A DNA stretch of 64,000 nt from Candidatus Mycoplasma haematobovis. Its GTDB lineage: Bacteria > Bacillota_I > Bacilli_A > Mycoplasmatales > Mycoplasmoidaceae. Shown piece by piece: positions 9,156 through 62,463 of this stretch. Under the pieces are notes generated by a model, which was not told where the DNA came from, did no database searches, and saw only the letters and a list, made by a program, of their open reading frames with translations. The position numbers and the translations under genes were made by a program. Within the stretch, counting starts at the first letter, position 1. The number at the start of each line of letters is the position of its first letter. The DNA is taken from positions 62,001 through 126,000 of the forward strand of contig NZ_LWUJ01000010.1 of NCBI RefSeq assembly GCF_001645765.1, in the 5' to 3' direction.

Positions 9156-9736
9156 ATGATCAAGAAATCTCTTGCCATTAAACTAGCTAGTTTAATTATT
9201 ACTGGCGGAATAGGTTTAGGAATATTCGGTAGTCAATATTTTCAACGGACTTCAACGGAAAAATAGGAGGATATCTTCTAAAAAGAGGGTTGGAAATAAC
9301 TAATTATGATGACCCAATTTGAGATGAAGAATTCGAAAGATACAAAAAAGAAACTAACAATGAAGATGGATTAAAGTCAGCAAAAGAACTACGAAATAAA
9401 TGTAAAGAACTTTTTGAAACTAAATTTGACGAATCAAATGATGATTTATTATCATTTGATGAAGACTTTTGTATAGGAAAAACAAAGCTTTCAAAATGAA
9501 TAAATGACAAAGGAAAGAAAATAGTTGATTTTGAAAAAGACAAAAGTATCTGAACTAGACTAGTTTCTTCAAATCCTGAAAACCAACAAAAAGCAAAAGA
9601 AATCAAAATAATTGAAAATATTTCTGACTCCAACGATTGAGAACAAAAAATGATAGATTATTGTAAAGGGACCGATTGAAACCAAGAAATACGAAAAGTA
9701 GACTATATGTCTATTATTGCTCTTTGCACAATTTAA
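9156..9736 (+). pseudogene. Family M protein, frame broken at a 10-bp repeat
   Basis: ATG start MIKKSLAIKLAS with hydrophobic residues 5-28. The frame closes at TAG just after two near-copies of TTCAACGGA (9241-9259). From there about 155 codons are open in another frame (YLLKRGLEITNYDD, RNKCKEL, DFCIG, DYCKG, ALCTI). One extra 10-bp unit would rejoin the halves. The other M copy, at 43079, is more decayed. Confidence 0.68.
9241..9259 (+). repeat. 10-bp direct repeat at a frame junction
   Basis: TTCAACGGAC followed by TTCAACGGA. Ten is not a multiple of three, so a copy-number change shifts the frame of the gene at 9156. Confidence 0.55.
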
Positions 9737-13147: not shown

Positions 13148-13889
13148 ATGGCTTTTCCTGTTATTAAATCATCTATTTTTGTTGCTCTTTTAGGTGCAAT
13201 CGGGGGTGGTGTGGCTTTTGCTAGTGGGTTATTAGGAAATTCGCGACAAGCAGACAAGCAAAGATTTTAAAGATCTCTTAGTTGTTAGTCATTTATCTCC
13301 TTTAGACACTAATTCCGAAGAAGGATGAGATTCTATATTGGAGTCAATAAATAAAGGGGAGAATAAACGCTTGTCAGATCCTGACATTAACATTGACCTT
13401 AGCACAATGGACATTAAGAAACTAAAGCAAAAATGTGAAGAATTTTTCAATTACGATTTCTCCAAAATTTCTGGAGGAGGAAGAAATTTAGAAAATTATC
13501 GAGTTTTTGCTTTTGCTGGTTCTTTATGTGTCAAAAAAGAGAAAGTTTCTGATGTGTTAAACAGATTTTGAGGCCCTAGCGCACTAAAGTCCACTGATGA
13601 TAATTCCATTTGAAAAGAAGTATTAATGTCTTATGATAGTCTTACAATACAATTTGGAATAGGCAAAGGCGTTGATGATTCTTCCGAACGCATAGAAGTG
13701 GAAACAGAAAACTTAAGTGATGAGTATATTGAAAAAGTTAAAGGTTTTTGTGAGAAAGAATATTTAAAACTTAAAGATAAAGAAACTACGGAAATTAGTG
13801 TTCCCGTCTTTATAGTGGAGAAAGGATTCTGTTACGGAAATTGAAATAATTACAGAAAACACCTTGAAAATAAAGACACAAAAAGATAA
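13148..13889 (+). pseudogene. Divergent family A protein, out of frame at an 8-bp repeat
   Basis: ATG start MAFPVIKSSIFVALLG with hydrophobic residues 8-30. The frame closes at TAA right after GACAAGCA x2 (13245-13260). The remaining about 205 codons are open in the next frame (KDFKDLLVVSHLSPLDT, KQKCEEFF, SLCVKKEK, GFCEKE, GFCYGN). Four Cys are kept but no Trp-Cys. A third repeat unit would restore one continuous frame. Confidence 0.7.
13245..13260 (+). repeat. GACAAGCA x2 at a frame junction
   Basis: Two perfect 8-bp units just after the hydrophobic segment of the gene at 13148. Three units would give an open frame. Confidence 0.65.
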
Positions 13890-33395: not shown

Positions 33396-33728
33396 ATGGC
33401 AATAACAAAAGCTACTAAATTAATTGTTGGATTGTTGGCTACTGGTGGTGTAAGTGGAGGAGTTGCAGGAAGCTATTATTTACTTAAACCTAAATCTTCT
33501 GAAGACTCAACACAAACAACTGATGGTAAGCAACAAGATACAGTTCTTCCCGCAAAACCAGATAGTGAGGATCAAACCAAGGGAGATTCCGGTACCCCAT
33601 CAAGAGATACAGACTCTTCTAGGCCAGAACCAGGTAGTTCTAGTAGTGCGCCTGATCCTGTTGTTCAACCGCCTTCACAACCCGCAGATGCTGCAGGAGG
33701 GGGACCTTCTTCTAGTTTAGGTGTGTAG
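33396..33728 (+). CDS. Ser/Pro-rich anchored protein (family S)
   Basis: 110 residues, ATG start MAITKATKLIVGLLA. Hydrophobic residues 8-30 end in GGVAGSYYLLKPK. The paralogue at 8261 has GGVAGCYYYFKPE, so here the lipobox Cys is Ser and the protein must be held by the helix itself, or released. The tail is Ser/Pro/Asp/Gln-rich, ending GGGPSSSLGV. No Cys. A second open frame in the same span is a shadow. Confidence 0.82.
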   Translation: MAITKATKLIVGLLATGGVSGGVAGSYYLLKPKSSEDSTQTTDGKQQDTVLPAKPDSEDQTKGDSGTPSRDTDSSRPEPGSSSSAPDPVVQPPSQPADAAGGGPSSSLGV

Positions 33729-33796
33729 TACTAATTTTTCTTTAAGTTTAAATACCAATTATTAACAATAAAATACTTTCTGTTCAATAGTAAACA

Positions 33797-34382
33797 ATGC
33801 TATTGCGAAAGAAAATAATTATTGCTAGTGGTTCTTCAGCTACTTTGCTTGGCGGTACATTAGCTATACCGTTTCTTGGCAACTTCTTTTAGAGAACAAC
33901 TAATAAGAAAAGGATTCAAGCCAGTCACTAATTAATCACACAAAATAAGTAGCGTTGATTCTACAATCTTAGATAGTTATGGTGTTTACAAAACTAACAA
34001 AAACGGCATGCAAGAATTCAATGTAGTAAAGTGATGCCAAGAACATGAAGAAAAAATAGAAGACAACGAAAAGTTAATGAAGCAAGTTGCAGAAATATGC
34101 TTTGAAACATTAGATTCTAAATTGAAAGGAATAAACAGAAGAATAATACTAGAAAAATCAGAATCCTCAGAATGAAATAAAGGGTGGAAAGCATTTAAAG
34201 TAAACAAAGTAACCACAAATAGTGCCTATTGAAATTTGAGTCTAGAATCAGATACTGCTACAGAAGAATTTAAAAAACAATGTATAGAAAACAGCAAAAA
34301 ACCATTCACTGATGAAAATAAAAAACTTTTTGACGAAGTAAGAGAGTATTGTTCGACAACTTGAATACCTAGACCTAACTAA
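33797..34382 (+). pseudogene. Family L protein with frameshift and nonsense codon
   Basis: ATG start MLLRKKIIIASGSS, hydrophobic residues 6-28. The frame is lost at TTTTAG near 33890 (one T too many). In the family frame a TAA stands where the sister gene at 34482 has a TGA-Trp (VTNW). After that the body is open: 'VKWCQEHE', AEICFET, KQCIEN, EYCSTTW. Two lesions suggest decay. Confidence 0.75.
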
Positions 34383-34481
34383 AGTTTAAGAAAGATTAAC
34401 TTACTTTGTTAACACTCGAAGCCATATCCCCGAGTAATTCTCTTAAATAATATAATAAAAGGACCTTTTCGACAAGCAATC

Positions 34482-35077
34482 ATGGCATTGAAAAGAAAGA
34501 TGTTTATTACGAGCGGTACTTTTGTTGCTTCATTAGGTGGAATATTATTTGCTAATCTACCAACTTTGGACGATTGGACGATTGGACGATTCCTATTAAA
34601 GAACGATTAGTAAAGAAAGGTTTTAAGCCAGTCACTAATTGAAATAATAAAGAAGACAGCCTTGACACTGACCTTCCCAAAAAATATGGAATTTACAAAA
34701 CTACCAACTGAGGTAGAGAGTACAATATTTCTCAATGGTGCAAAGAAAATGAAAACCAAACTGGCAATAATCCTGAACTAACAAAAAAGGTTGAAGCATT
34801 ATGTTTTGAAACAATGGCTTCACAACTTAAAGGACAAGGAAAAAGAATACTTTTGGAACAAGAAAAAACAAGCTGAAAGAAAAACTGAGAAAAATTTAAA
34901 GCAAGAAGAGAAACTGCTAATTACGCTTATTGAAGTTTCTCATCAAATTTATTAAAGTCTGAAAATGCACCGGATGATTTCATAAGACGTTGCAGAGACA
35001 ATAGTCAAAAACCATATACTGATGAAAATAAAGGATTATTAAATGAAATAGAACTATTTTGCACAAATAGTCCTTAA
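34482..35077 (+). pseudogene. Family L protein switched OFF by an extra 8-bp repeat
   Basis: ATG start MALKRKMFITSGTF, hydrophobic residues 7-28. TTGGACGA x3 (34566-34589) follows; with three copies the frame ends at TAG, and with two it reads on as 'IPIKERLVKKGFKPVTNW' through about 160 codons with SQWCKE, ALCFET, RRCRDN and LFCTNS to TAA. I saw no other lesion, so a reversible switch is plausible. Confidence 0.76.
34566..34589 (+). repeat. TTGGACGA x3, frame closed
   Basis: Three perfect 8-bp units after the hydrophobic segment. Two copies give one open frame for the gene at 34482. Confidence 0.88.
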
Positions 35078-35147
35078 CTTTTTTGTAATAAGAGAATTAA
35101 ATAGCTCTTATCTCTAAAAGAAGACATAATCCTAGAAAAGCATAATA

Positions 35148-35732
35148 ATGGGTCTTGTAGGAAAGATTGGAAGTGTTGTTGGAGTTTTAGGTGCCTTGGG
35201 TGGTGGAGTAGCTACTGTTAGCTACTTAAATAGAGATAATACGACCATAGAGGACACATTAAAGAAAGTAGGATATCAAATTTTAGACAATACAACAAGC
35301 GAATTAACCAAAGTGTTAACCGCTTACAAAGAAATACCCAATAAAGAAACAGTATTTGGAGAGATTGCAAATGAAAATGGTCTACTATCTAAATGCCAAG
35401 AAATACTTAAACAAAACGACAAAAAGAATTATCCCTTAGCACGTAGATGATGTGTTAAAGAAGAAACTATGGATGCTATGTTAAAGAGAAATAGTTATAC
35501 ACCTATTGGTGCAAGTGGTCAAGATGGAAATAATGCAAAATGACAAGCAAAAGTAACACTTTTGAAAAAGGACAAAAACAATGAAATGAAACTAACATTA
35601 GGCACTACTAATGATGTAGATGTTTTAGAAAAAGCTTGTCAAGCATTACAAATTACCCAATCAAAAACTCATGCGAGTGATGATTTTGAAGAAAAATACA
35701 TCAAAGCAAGTAAATGATGCTCAGAAAAATAA
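35148..35732 (+). CDS. Family A2 two-module Cys protein
   Basis: 194 residues, ATG start MGLVGKIGSVVGVLG. Hydrophobic residues 7-26, 'TTIEDTLKKVGYQILDN', WC at 101/102 and 190/191 with 'MLKRNSYTPIG' and 'SKTHASDDFEEKYIKASKWC'. It opens a run of nine coupled genes; the next ATG follows its TAA directly. Confidence 0.92.
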
Positions 35733-36356
35733 ATGCCTAGCGCTACCAAAATAATTGCTACAGTTGCAGGAGTTAGTACAGTTGGTGGTGGAGTAGGTTT
35801 AAGTATTCATTTACTAAATAAATATCCAACAATAAGTACTAAGCTAACATCAGAAGGTTTTGAATTAGCTTCCACTGAACAAGACTGAACAAAATTATCA
35901 GAAGCACATAATAAACTTGTTGCTCCTACAGATAAAGTCTTTAAAGAAGAAGGTACTGCTAATAAAGATTGAAAATGGTTGAAAAGTAAATGCGAAAAAG
36001 CTTTAAGTAGCGAAGAAAATGATCAAACTAATTACAAGTTAGCAAGACAATGATGTGTTAAAGAAACAGACGTAAACGCTATTTTAGGAAAAACAAAAGG
36101 AAAATTTAAGATATTAAGTTCAAATACGACATCAGCAGATTCAAATAGCTGATCTGAGAAAGTTCAAAATTTAAATCAAGATACTACAGCTATCAGTGCA
36201 CTAGGTCTTCAAAAAACAGGAACTAAGAACATTTCTTTTGACGATCTTAAAGGCAAGTGTACATCAATACTTACAACCAAAACAACTGCTGGCGACTTTA
36301 ATGATAAGTTTGAATTAGCCAAAAAATGATGCTTTATTTCAAATACCGCCTCTTAA
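35733..36356 (+). CDS. Family A1 two-module Cys protein
   Basis: 207 residues, ATG start MPSATKIIATVAGVS. Hydrophobic residues 7-28, 'LTSEGFELASTEQDW', WC at 107/108 and 199/200. The second half contains 'LKGKCTSIL'. No gap to the gene before; one base to the next. It begins an A-D-B-E order. Confidence 0.92.
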
Positions 36357-51972: not shown

Positions 51973-52549
51973 ATGGCATTTTCCGTTGCTAAAAAAGTAG
52001 TGGTAGTAACAACTAGCATTATCTATTCACACAGTTTTTGACAGTTAATAGCATTAAAGAAGAATTAATTAAGAAACATAACGTCCCTTTAGATTTAACT
52101 GCTACTTCTGAAAAAAATTATGAACATTTACAAGAGTTAGCAAAGCAATACTTAGTGGCAAACCGTCAGGGAAAGAAAGAATTGACTTTAAGCTCTGCAA
52201 CAGATACTAAACCCTTAAGAAAAAATGTTTGACTCTCTTAAATAGCAGTTCCAACCATAAAAATTTAACAAGCTCAGAAAACTGATGTACTGGAGAAAAT
52301 GTACCAAGAAAAATATCAACCCTTATGAATCAAAAAAAGGACGGTACAGTTTGAAATTTTCCATGAAAAAGATTTAAAGAAAAGCACAATAACAAAAATC
52401 CAATAAGGATTTGGAATATCAGAAATTGAGAGGCAATAAAGAATAATGATGAGGTACCTAATGAAAAAATAAATATACTAACAACTAGTTCAGGTTCAGT
52501 AATGTTAGGTAAAATAGAAAAATTCTGTACTAAAGCAAATAATGACTAG
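51973..52549 (+). pseudogene. Family K-like remnant with two frameshifts
   Basis: ATG start MAFSVAKKVVVVTTS. One frame change lies near 52035, before 'SIKEELIKKHNVPLDL', and a second near 52235, after 'LRKNVWLS'. The rest runs in a third frame with SENWCTG, 'WNFPWKRF' and KFCTKAN to TAG. The hydrophobic segment is short. Probably decayed. Its end overlaps the next start by 8 nt. Confidence 0.65.
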
Positions 52550-53011
52550 CACATTTGTAAAAATAGCTAGCTTAGGTGGAGGGATAGCAACTGTAACAGG
52601 GGGCACCATTGCAGTTGTTTATTCATTGTCTGATTCTTCAAAAACAAAACCCAGTACCCAAAGCAATGGCGATGAATCTTCAAAACAACAAAATACTAAA
52701 CAACCTCAATCAATTACTCAATTACTCAATTACTAACAAATAATAATTTGAAATTATTAAGCAAAAGCGAACCGAAAGATAATGATAAATGAAATACCAA
52801 TTGACAAAAATTTCAACAAGCTAACAATAGTGATACTGCTCCAAGTGTGCCTTGGAACTTTTCAGATTGAAAAACAACTAGAGTAAAGACTACGGCTCCC
52901 GAGGAATTCAAGACTGAATGTGAAAAACATGGAGCACAAACAGCAATTAATGAACAAAATTCAAGTTACATAGCAACAAGTACATATTGTTCAAAAGGAA
53001 TAGATGAATAA
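52542..53011 (+). pseudogene. Family K protein switched OFF by an extra 8-bp repeat
   Basis: ATG start MTSTFVKIASLGGG, hydrophobic residues 5-28, Ser/Lys/Gln linker. CAATTACT x3 (52711-52734) closes the frame at 52736. With two copies it reads SITQLLTNNNLKLLSKSE and on through 'WNTNWQKFQ', TECEKHG and TYCSKG to TAA, matching the K gene at 51405 (SIIDFLKDKQLEL). No other lesion was seen. Confidence 0.76.
52711..52734 (+). repeat. CAATTACT x3, frame closed
   Basis: Three perfect 8-bp units at the linker-to-body border of the gene at 52542. Two copies restore the family reading frame exactly. Confidence 0.88.
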
Positions 53012-57019: not shown

Positions 57020-57415
57020 TTGGCTTCCATAAAGATTGACAAAACTTTAAAAAACATGGTAGTAATAGGAGGAACAGTCTCAACTGTGGCTTTTGGCTTT
57101 TCAATGGTATCTTCCAAAGCTAGCATGAATAAATCAATTAGTCTAGGATATCCGACCAGCAAATGAACTCCAAATGTAACAAATATTGATAGTGTTGATA
57201 ACATTGAAGATCTTGAATTGCAAAAGGGGTGTAAATTCGTATTCTATAACAAAAGCGAAAAACAAACAGCATTCAGTGGTGGATTAGTAAAGGATGCCAG
57301 AAATTATTTAAATGGTGTTAGTGATGAATCAAAAAAACAAAAAATAATTGAAGAGGTTAGGAGAAATAAAGACAATTGTAACAAAGATGGATTTATTTAC
57401 ATTGAACTAGAATAG
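57020..57415 (+). CDS. Family I short protein, tandem copy 1
   Basis: 131 residues from TTG (ASIKIDKTLKNMVV); an internal ATG (residue 13) is an alternative. Hydrophobic residues 13-33, then 'ASMNKSISLGY', 'IEDLELQKGCKFVFYNK', 'KDARNYLNG' and 'NCNKDGFIYIELE'. Two Cys, about 50 residues apart. The stop overlaps the next GTG. First of five tandem copies. Confidence 0.86.
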
Positions 57416-58149: not shown

Positions 58150-58530
58150 ATGACTTTAAAGGGTAGCAGAACTGTAAAGAATATGGTAGTAATAGGAGGA
58201 ACAGTCTCAACTGTGGCTTTTGGCTTTTCAATGGTATCTTCCAAAGCTAGCATGTCTAAAATACACAATCTATCTTACTCAACAGATAAAGTAGGAAAAA
58301 ATATAACAACTATTAGCAATTTTGATCAAATTGAGGATTTTGAATTTGCCAATGGTTGCAAATTTCTATTCTACAAAAAAGGAGATAAAGATGCCTTCAA
58401 AAATGGGGAAGTTAAAGGGGCTAGAAGTTTTTCTTCAGGAGAAAATAATAATCAAGAAGAAATAATTAAGAAAGTGCAAGACAATAAACAGAATTGTACT
58501 AAAGATAGATTTATTTACAGCGAAATTTAA
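58150..58530 (+). CDS. Family I short protein, tandem copy 4
   Basis: 126 residues, ATG start MTLKGSRTVKNMVV. Hydrophobic residues 11-29 encoded with (GGCTTTT)x2, 'IEDFEFANGCKFLFYKKGDKD', 'KGARSFSSG', 'NCTKDRFIYSEI'. About 65 bases over the anchor are identical to copy 1. TAATG overlap with copy 5. Confidence 0.9.
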   Translation: MTLKGSRTVKNMVVIGGTVSTVAFGFSMVSSKASMSKIHNLSYSTDKVGKNITTISNFDQIEDFEFANGCKFLFYKKGDKDAFKNGEVKGARSFSSGENNNQEEIIKKVQDNKQNCTKDRFIYSEI

Positions 58531-58923
58531 TGACCCTTAAGGGTAGTAGAACCTCCAAAAACATGATTGTTATTGGAGGTACAGTATCTATTGTGGCTTT
58601 TGGCTTTTGGCTTTTCAATGGTATCTTCCAAAGCTAGCATGTCCAAAGTGGCTAGTTTAAGCTACCACAATGGTAATTGAACTCCAAATGTAACAAATAT
58701 TAGTAGTATTGACAATATTGAAGATCTAGAGCATTCAAAGGGATGTAAGTTTCTTTTCTACAAAAAGAACGAAAAAACTAATGCCTTTTCTCAGGGAAAA
58801 ATAAAGGATGCAAGAAGTTATTCAACAGAAAATAAAGATAAAGAAAATAACCAAATACAACAAGTAACAACTCACAAAGATAAATGCGAAAAGAATAGAT
58901 TCATTTATATTGAAATGGATTAA
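58530..58923 (+). pseudogene. Family I copy 5, switched OFF by an extra 7-bp repeat
   Basis: ATG start MTLKGSRTSKNMIV. Inside the hydrophobic segment GGCTTTT occurs three times (58595-58615) where copies 1 and 4 have two; the frame ends at TAG within a few codons. With two units it reads FGFSMVSSKASMSK and on to 'KGCKFLFYKKNEK', 'KCEKNRFIYIEMD' and TAA. No other lesion was seen, and the open sister copies show the ON state directly. Confidence 0.84.
58595..58615 (+). repeat. GGCTTTT x3, frame closed
   Basis: Three perfect 7-bp units. The open paralogues at 57088-57101 and 58214-58227 have two. Confidence 0.9.
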
Positions 58924-61971: not shown

Positions 61972-62463
61972 ATGTTCAAATTATTAATTAAGTACATTGG
62001 AATTTCTGGGATGTGTGGATGTGCAGTTTTAGCATCTACATCATTTACTAACGAAGACGAAAGAGAGTCGCCACATAGAGTTAGTTTAAGTAAGCGAGAA
62101 GGACGAATAACAGCTGTTAATAAATTAGAGGATATTGATGTATGAGGAAAACAAAATGGATGTAGCTTTGTCTTCATAGAAGATTGGAACAGAAAACAAA
62201 TTTACAATGCCGAAGGATTTGCAGGCAAGAAAGGAGGAAAAGATAAAGAAGCATTCAAAACAACAAAAGACAATAGTAAACAAAATACTTCAACTACTTG
62301 AGAAGAAGCAATTGTTAAAGCAGTTAATGACTTTAAAGATTACTGCAAAATAAAACTAAATACATTCAGTTTTCAATGAAGCGCAAAACACAATAAATTC
62401 TATATAGCTGATCCAAATATTACTCCTAGAGCAGAAGTGGAACAAGTAGCAAGTAGAAGATAA
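61972..62463 (+). CDS. Family J protein
   Basis: 163 residues, ATG start MFKLLIKYIGISGMC. N-terminal 40 residues nearly the same as the gene at 60504, then 'LEDIDVWGKQNGCSFVFIEDW', 'AEGFAGKKGGKD', 'FKDYCKIKLNTFSFQW'. The C-terminal third differs. It diverges from the switched-off PC-subtype gene 62 bases away, as its paralogue does from the open one. Confidence 0.88.

Follow-up and report, generated by a model that had tools for sequence, protein, structure and literature searches.

An 8-bp coding repeat behind the membrane segment of a Candidatus Mycoplasma haematobovis paralog as the probable closed state of a slipped-strand switch

Results

An 8-bp array separates the two parts of a paralog

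In a 64,000-nucleotide stretch of the Candidatus Mycoplasma haematobovis genome (the window), an array of the 8-bp unit TTGGACGA interrupts the frame of a gene between its hydrophobic 5' part and its cysteine-rich 3' part. We conclude that this locus is probably a slipped-strand on/off switch in its closed state and one of a genus-wide set of such loci, in which each gene has a repeat of its own. The window covers positions 62,001 to 126,000 of contig C1 of a draft assembly (935,638 bp in 18 contigs; G+C content 0.31). It uses genetic code 4 (TGA = Trp), and most of it is occupied by short genes that follow one another in series and encode an N-terminal hydrophobic segment.

The three TTGGACGA units at 34566-34589 reported in the original prediction are perfect copies, and two bases of a fourth unit follow, up to 34591 (3.25 copies, TRF score 52; Table 1). 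A search of the 935,638-bp assembly found the tandem at this locus only. The 5' frame begins with ATG at 34482, enters the array at codon 29 after a 28-codon 5' part, and reaches TAG at 34608 after 42 codons, having passed through the array. The cysteine-bearing frame has no stop codon from within the array up to the TAA ending at 35077 and lies at +2 nt relative to the 5' frame. According to simple arithmetic on the unedited sequence (8 mod 3 = 2), this offset corresponds to one unit too many or two too few. Past the array, the 3' part comprises 161 codons with four cysteines and has no further lesion. The proposal that one surplus unit, placed directly after the membrane segment, closes the gene is therefore borne out: the array directly follows the hydrophobic segment, a single 8-bp unit separates both frames, and the part that one unit fewer would bring into frame contains all cysteines and no other defect. 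The same applies to the proposed block of outer-domain export, as the present copy number precludes synthesis of an anchored ectodomain.

The locus thus combines a tandem repeat inside a coding sequence, with a unit that is not a multiple of 3, and a copy number that decides whether both parts share a frame (offset +2, one 8-bp unit), as is characteristic of slipped-strand phase-variable genes. It also has the layout of haemoplasma paralog families, with an N-terminal hydrophobic segment, a tail of ~100-200 residues, a tandem series of genes and the use of code 4. The 3' part is predicted to be well folded and mostly helical (mean pLDDT 89.7, pTM 0.81). It had no match in the PDB, either by sequence or by fold, and a genome-collection scan revealed no relatives of it outside its own genome. 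No Pfam family scored above cut-off at the locus, and Rfam returned nothing in 33500-35800; the name "family L", under which the gene had been introduced, is a label of the original prediction for which there is no matching Pfam family. We found no ortholog of the TTGGACGA gene, the nearest same-genus matches being weak and covering only part of the domain.

Table 1. Positions of features in the window.
Feature	Position	Strand	Basis
Two-copy seed ATTGTTGG x2.0, in frame, within an intact neighbouring gene	33423..33438	+	
Upstream paralog (43-44% identity) with a repeat-free break at the same joint and one additional TAA	33797..34382	+	
5' coding part of the TTGGACGA gene: ATG, basic start, hydrophobic (membrane/signal) segment MALKRKMFITSGTFVASLGGILFANLPT	34482..34565	+	code 4 translation
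TTGGACGA array, 3.25 copies, one unit in excess relative to the 3' frame	34566..34591	+	
3' coding part of the TTGGACGA gene: four-Cys ectodomain, +2 frame, TAA at 35075-35077	34592..35077	+	translation and structure prediction
Second gene: 5' hydrophobic part; TCAATTAC x3.1 at 52710-52734 ends in a stop; 3' part of 91 codons, one unit out of frame	52542..53011	+	
Third gene: TGGCTTT x3.1 at 58594-58615, frame offset of one 7-bp unit	58530..58923	+	

Close paralogs and the question of decay

The upstream paralog (33797-34382) is an ordinary pseudogene with two lesions, compared to one in the TTGGACGA gene. A third close member, on the minus strand at C12:80725, likewise has a split at the joint that involves no repeat; this member was identified, together with the closed genes that have two copies, in a general scan for split genes that was otherwise full of antisense false positives. 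Among the three paralogs, pN is 0.32-0.39 against a pS of 0.63-0.75; between the TTGGACGA gene and the two others, pS is near saturation at 0.63-0.65. Amino acids are thus better conserved than synonymous sites, which indicates that the three evolved as proteins for most of their history.

These relatives bring up the possibility that the TTGGACGA gene is an ordinary pseudogene as well, in which a chance expansion at a two-copy stretch broke a dispensable paralog that is now in early decay; expansions would be seen in expendable genes only, being selected against elsewhere. Two observations are in line with this explanation: other lesions mark the nearest paralog as a plain pseudogene, and the third member is split without any array. 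The lack of any other lesion in the 3' part of the TTGGACGA gene argues against it. Taken by itself, the locus cannot decide between a switch and decay.

Frame-breaking arrays recur at the same position in many genes

For comparison, we analyzed all of contigs C1 and C12 of the window's genome (G000) and 260 kb from each of two relatives of the same genus with single-contig genomes (G001, 919,992 bp; G002, 1,147,259 bp), 995 kb in total. In 361 kb of the window's genome, there were 20 perfect tandem arrays compared to about one under an order-3 Markov null, and five 8-bp arrays of at least 2.5 copies compared to 0.4 expected under the same null. Nearly all arrays in these 361 kb whose unit is not a multiple of 3 connected a 5' part with a hydrophobic N-terminus to a long 3' part that is read in a different frame. 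We determined the frames by eye, both here and in the ortholog pairs described below.

Across the 995 kb of the three genomes, 25 expanded arrays with such units were located at frame breaks. One extra unit accounts for the offset in 22 of the 25 closed genes and two extra units in the remaining 3. The arrays are situated close to the 5' end (median codon 36), with a mean relative position of 0.25 compared to 0.42 for random placement (p = 5e-5). Where the unit is a multiple of 3, 24 of 28 arrays were found in ORFs that are intact (median codon 281). These data support the assignment of the TTGGACGA locus to a genome-wide class of frame-breaking repeats that occupy the same position in many genes. 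Since its unit length, position, offset and gene type all agree with this class, we take the locus as a closed switch allele.

All expanded arrays that we observed are closed, which is also what the pseudogene explanation expects of any frame-breaking growth from an open two-copy stretch. Among the arrays examined, none was clearly open at five or more copies, although frequent slippage should fill such states too; contraction back to two copies may dominate and leave them empty. In addition, three copies are short for a hypermutable tract, which speaks against a switch.

Two other explanations concern the repeats as such. The extra unit might be an assembly or sequencing artefact, with a true count of two or with one of several lengths picked by the assembler, a concern raised by the draft status of the 18-contig assembly. 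We consider this extremely unlikely, because perfect extra units of 7-11 bp would be an unusual sequencing error and the same pattern is present in the two single-contig genomes; a population of mixed lengths would itself favour switching. Alternatively, both parts could be translated, joined or separately, if the repeat acted as a site of programmed frameshifting or of re-initiation at the TTG contained in each unit. The offsets of one or two units and the gene-specific unit sequences leave no common slippery site, sister genes and orthologs are simply in frame at fewer copies, and a restart would yield an ectodomain without its anchor. Recoding is therefore very improbable in our view, even though TTG codons are present inside the TTGGACGA array, one of them in the 3' frame (34574), and one ortholog pair is out of frame in both species yet conserved.

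The window contains two further genes closed by an array (Table 1). Neighbouring sisters of the TGGCTTT gene have x2.1 copies at 57087-57101 and 58214-58228 and are in frame. Two other genes of the window have a break behind the hydrophobic segment but no more than two copies of a unit, namely the 10-bp TTCAACGGAC x1.9 at 9241-9259 and the 8-bp GACAAGCA x2.0 at 13245-13260; these were possibly closed by a fresh first duplication.

Some arrays outside the window deserve separate mention. Two much larger genes also have a closing array behind the N-terminal hydrophobic part (at about C1:163730, 8-bp x3.25; at about C12:169135, 10-bp x2.8); their 3' parts are 468 and 892 codons long. An identical CAAGA x3.6 array is present in two paralogs (C1:18593 and C1:34379), both of which are closed, and ACAAG at 2.4-3.6 copies is found in frame in five intact genes. 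Directly at the likely start codon of a further paralog, TGGC x5.25 (C1:153393-153413) constitutes a possible start-site switch. In G002, two different genes (C1:890597 and C1:891623) share a GTCCCTA x3 array at the anchor, an indication that paralogs may have exchanged their 5' ends. HsdS is a conceivable identity of the genes with 11-bp arrays.

Intact genes carry two-copy seeds behind the anchor

We defined seeds as stretches of 1.8-2.5 copies in intact genes with an N-terminal hydrophobic segment and compared their number to that in synonymous-codon shuffles, which keep the protein. In 295 genes of the window's genome, 161 seeds of 7, 8, 10 or 11 bp were located in codons 8-70, compared to 35.2 +- 3.9 in the shuffled sequences. 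From codon 100 onwards, observed and shuffled numbers were similar (61 and 58.7), and seeds of 6, 9 or 12 bp showed no excess (40 compared to 50). An in-frame seed of 8, 10 or 11 bp in codons 8-70 was found in 98 of the 295 genes, while 11.5 were expected from the shuffles; in the window, 27 of 52 membrane-anchored genes have a seed in codons 8-70. When the three genomes were pooled, the excess per unit length was 2.2x (7 bp), 7.1x (8 bp), 5.1x (10 bp) and 8.3x (11 bp), and there was none for 6, 9 and 12 bp. The excess survived dereplication, local shuffles and codon resampling, and it peaked 0-20 codons past the hydrophobic segment (94 compared to 12.4). Of 220 seeds, 174 were distinct in sequence.

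The excess was weaker yet present in both relatives. It was absent from four other mycoplasma genomes, which represent two other genera and, with two genomes of 564,395 and 650,228 bp, the same family, and long or anchor-less genes showed no clear excess (147 genes, small numbers). Seeds that are present in open genes, only with frame-breaking lengths and only in one place, are what a switch requires, and decay does not predict them. The pseudogene explanation in particular leaves the 4-8 times surplus of two-copy stretches unexplained, restricted as it is to frame-breaking units behind the anchor. The seeds could reflect selection for mutability or be a record of past slippage, which would look similar.

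Closed genes of the two relatives have open orthologs and remain under purifying selection

When the two relatives were compared, the open orthologs of closed genes had about 1 to 1.8 copies. The AAAGACAATTT array has 3.82 copies in the closed gene and 1.82 in its open ortholog, a difference of exactly two units. Similarly, TAAAGGCGTTT is closed at 3.73 and open at ~1.7 copies, AAAAGAATCT is closed at 3.8 and open at ~1.8, and AGCAAGAG at 2.88 copies is closed opposite an open ortholog. One orthologous pair of 10-bp arrays (G001:C1:363904-363942, 3.9 copies; G002:C1:444478-444506, 2.9 copies) is closed in both species, in different frames as judged by inspection. The length of orthologous arrays therefore varies between species (1.82/3.82; 2.9/3.9), and this ladder is one seen between species, not within one.

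The closed 3' parts have dN/dS values of 0.105, 0.109, 0.162 and 0.106, and of 0.08 for the pair closed in both species, compared to a median of 0.153 for intact genes (179 reciprocal-best ortholog pairs); a sixth pair is an exception with 0.34. Because closed parts keep a dN/dS like that of intact genes and have open orthologs, closure is recent or reversible rather than the result of old decay. Near-intact values, including those of a gene closed in both species at different copy numbers, are difficult to reconcile with ordinary pseudogenes. In the light of this and of the seeds, we regard the pseudogene explanation for the TTGGACGA gene as unlikely, albeit as the main rival and one to be taken seriously.

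Discussion

We propose that the TTGGACGA array, at the joint between membrane segment and ectodomain of a putatively membrane-anchored, cysteine-rich paralog, would leave the gene open at two copies (or five), while at three copies the ectodomain would be out of frame and only a 42-residue peptide would be made. The copy number would most likely shift by slipped-strand mispairing at replication, so that closure might act as a heritable but reversible on/off switch (phase variation). A large set of genes in the genus would be organized in the same way, each with a private unit of 7, 8, 10 or 11 bp just behind the anchor. The usual state would be in frame at about two copies, with one or two units added in a minority of genes.

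We lean slightly towards a more far-reaching model for the haemofelis group, in which at least 100 surface-type genes have their own frame-breaking seed behind the anchor, maintained at the synonymous level by selection for mutability, and a minority that is closed at any given time produces changing surface combinations without recombination. Such surface-exposed products might contribute to varying the antigens that face the host. This would bear on the persistence of haemoplasmas in blood with cycling bacteraemia, for which phase or antigenic variation has been suspected in the consulted parts of earlier reports, which do not name the switches (PMC3196708, PMC3146833). For the loci named here, the lengths of the open and the closed state are predicted and can be checked by culture-free PCR in stored blood. 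Our data additionally suggest that repeats listed as "intergenic", as well as some of the genes that have been counted as pseudogenes or annotated as truncated, represent closed alleles. The enrichment of seeds at the synonymous level is unusual evidence that selection for switchability may shape codon choice.

Tandem repeats have been counted before in M. haemofelis (61; PMC3196708) and M. haemocanis (33; PMC3496576). According to the consulted parts of these reports, the authors suspected phase variation, noted repeats in type I HsdS genes, placed most repeats intergenic to hypothetical proteins and speculated on promoter switching. In contrast, most frame-breaking arrays in the stretches that we examined are inside split coding sequences at the joint of anchor and ectodomain. 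The same parts of the two reports contain no placement in split genes, no rule of two copies open and three to four closed, and no seeds in open genes. Haemoplasma paralog families have been described, in the portion of the source considered here, as an N-terminal signal or membrane segment followed by a non-cytoplasmic tail of ~200 residues (PMC3146833); our genes share with them the gene size, the serial arrangement, the N-terminal hydrophobic segment and conserved cysteines. That portion suspects antigenic variation via recombination as in Anaplasma and does not describe a frame switch for each gene (PMC3146833).

Slipped-strand phase variation through coding repeats is exemplified by the AGTC tract of Haemophilus influenzae mod and the poly-A tract of Mycoplasma fermentans p78 (cited in PMC3711429), and dinucleotide tracts have been reported for Ca. 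M. girerdii (PMC5476646). The loci described here have in common with such contingency loci a coding tandem repeat near the 5' end, a unit that is not a multiple of 3, a copy number that sets the frame, and surface-type genes. Contingency loci usually consist of short units in long runs, such as AGTC repeated more than 30 times, whereas the units found here are 7-11 bp long, mostly gene-specific, open at about two copies and closed at three to four, and spread over a whole paralog repertoire.
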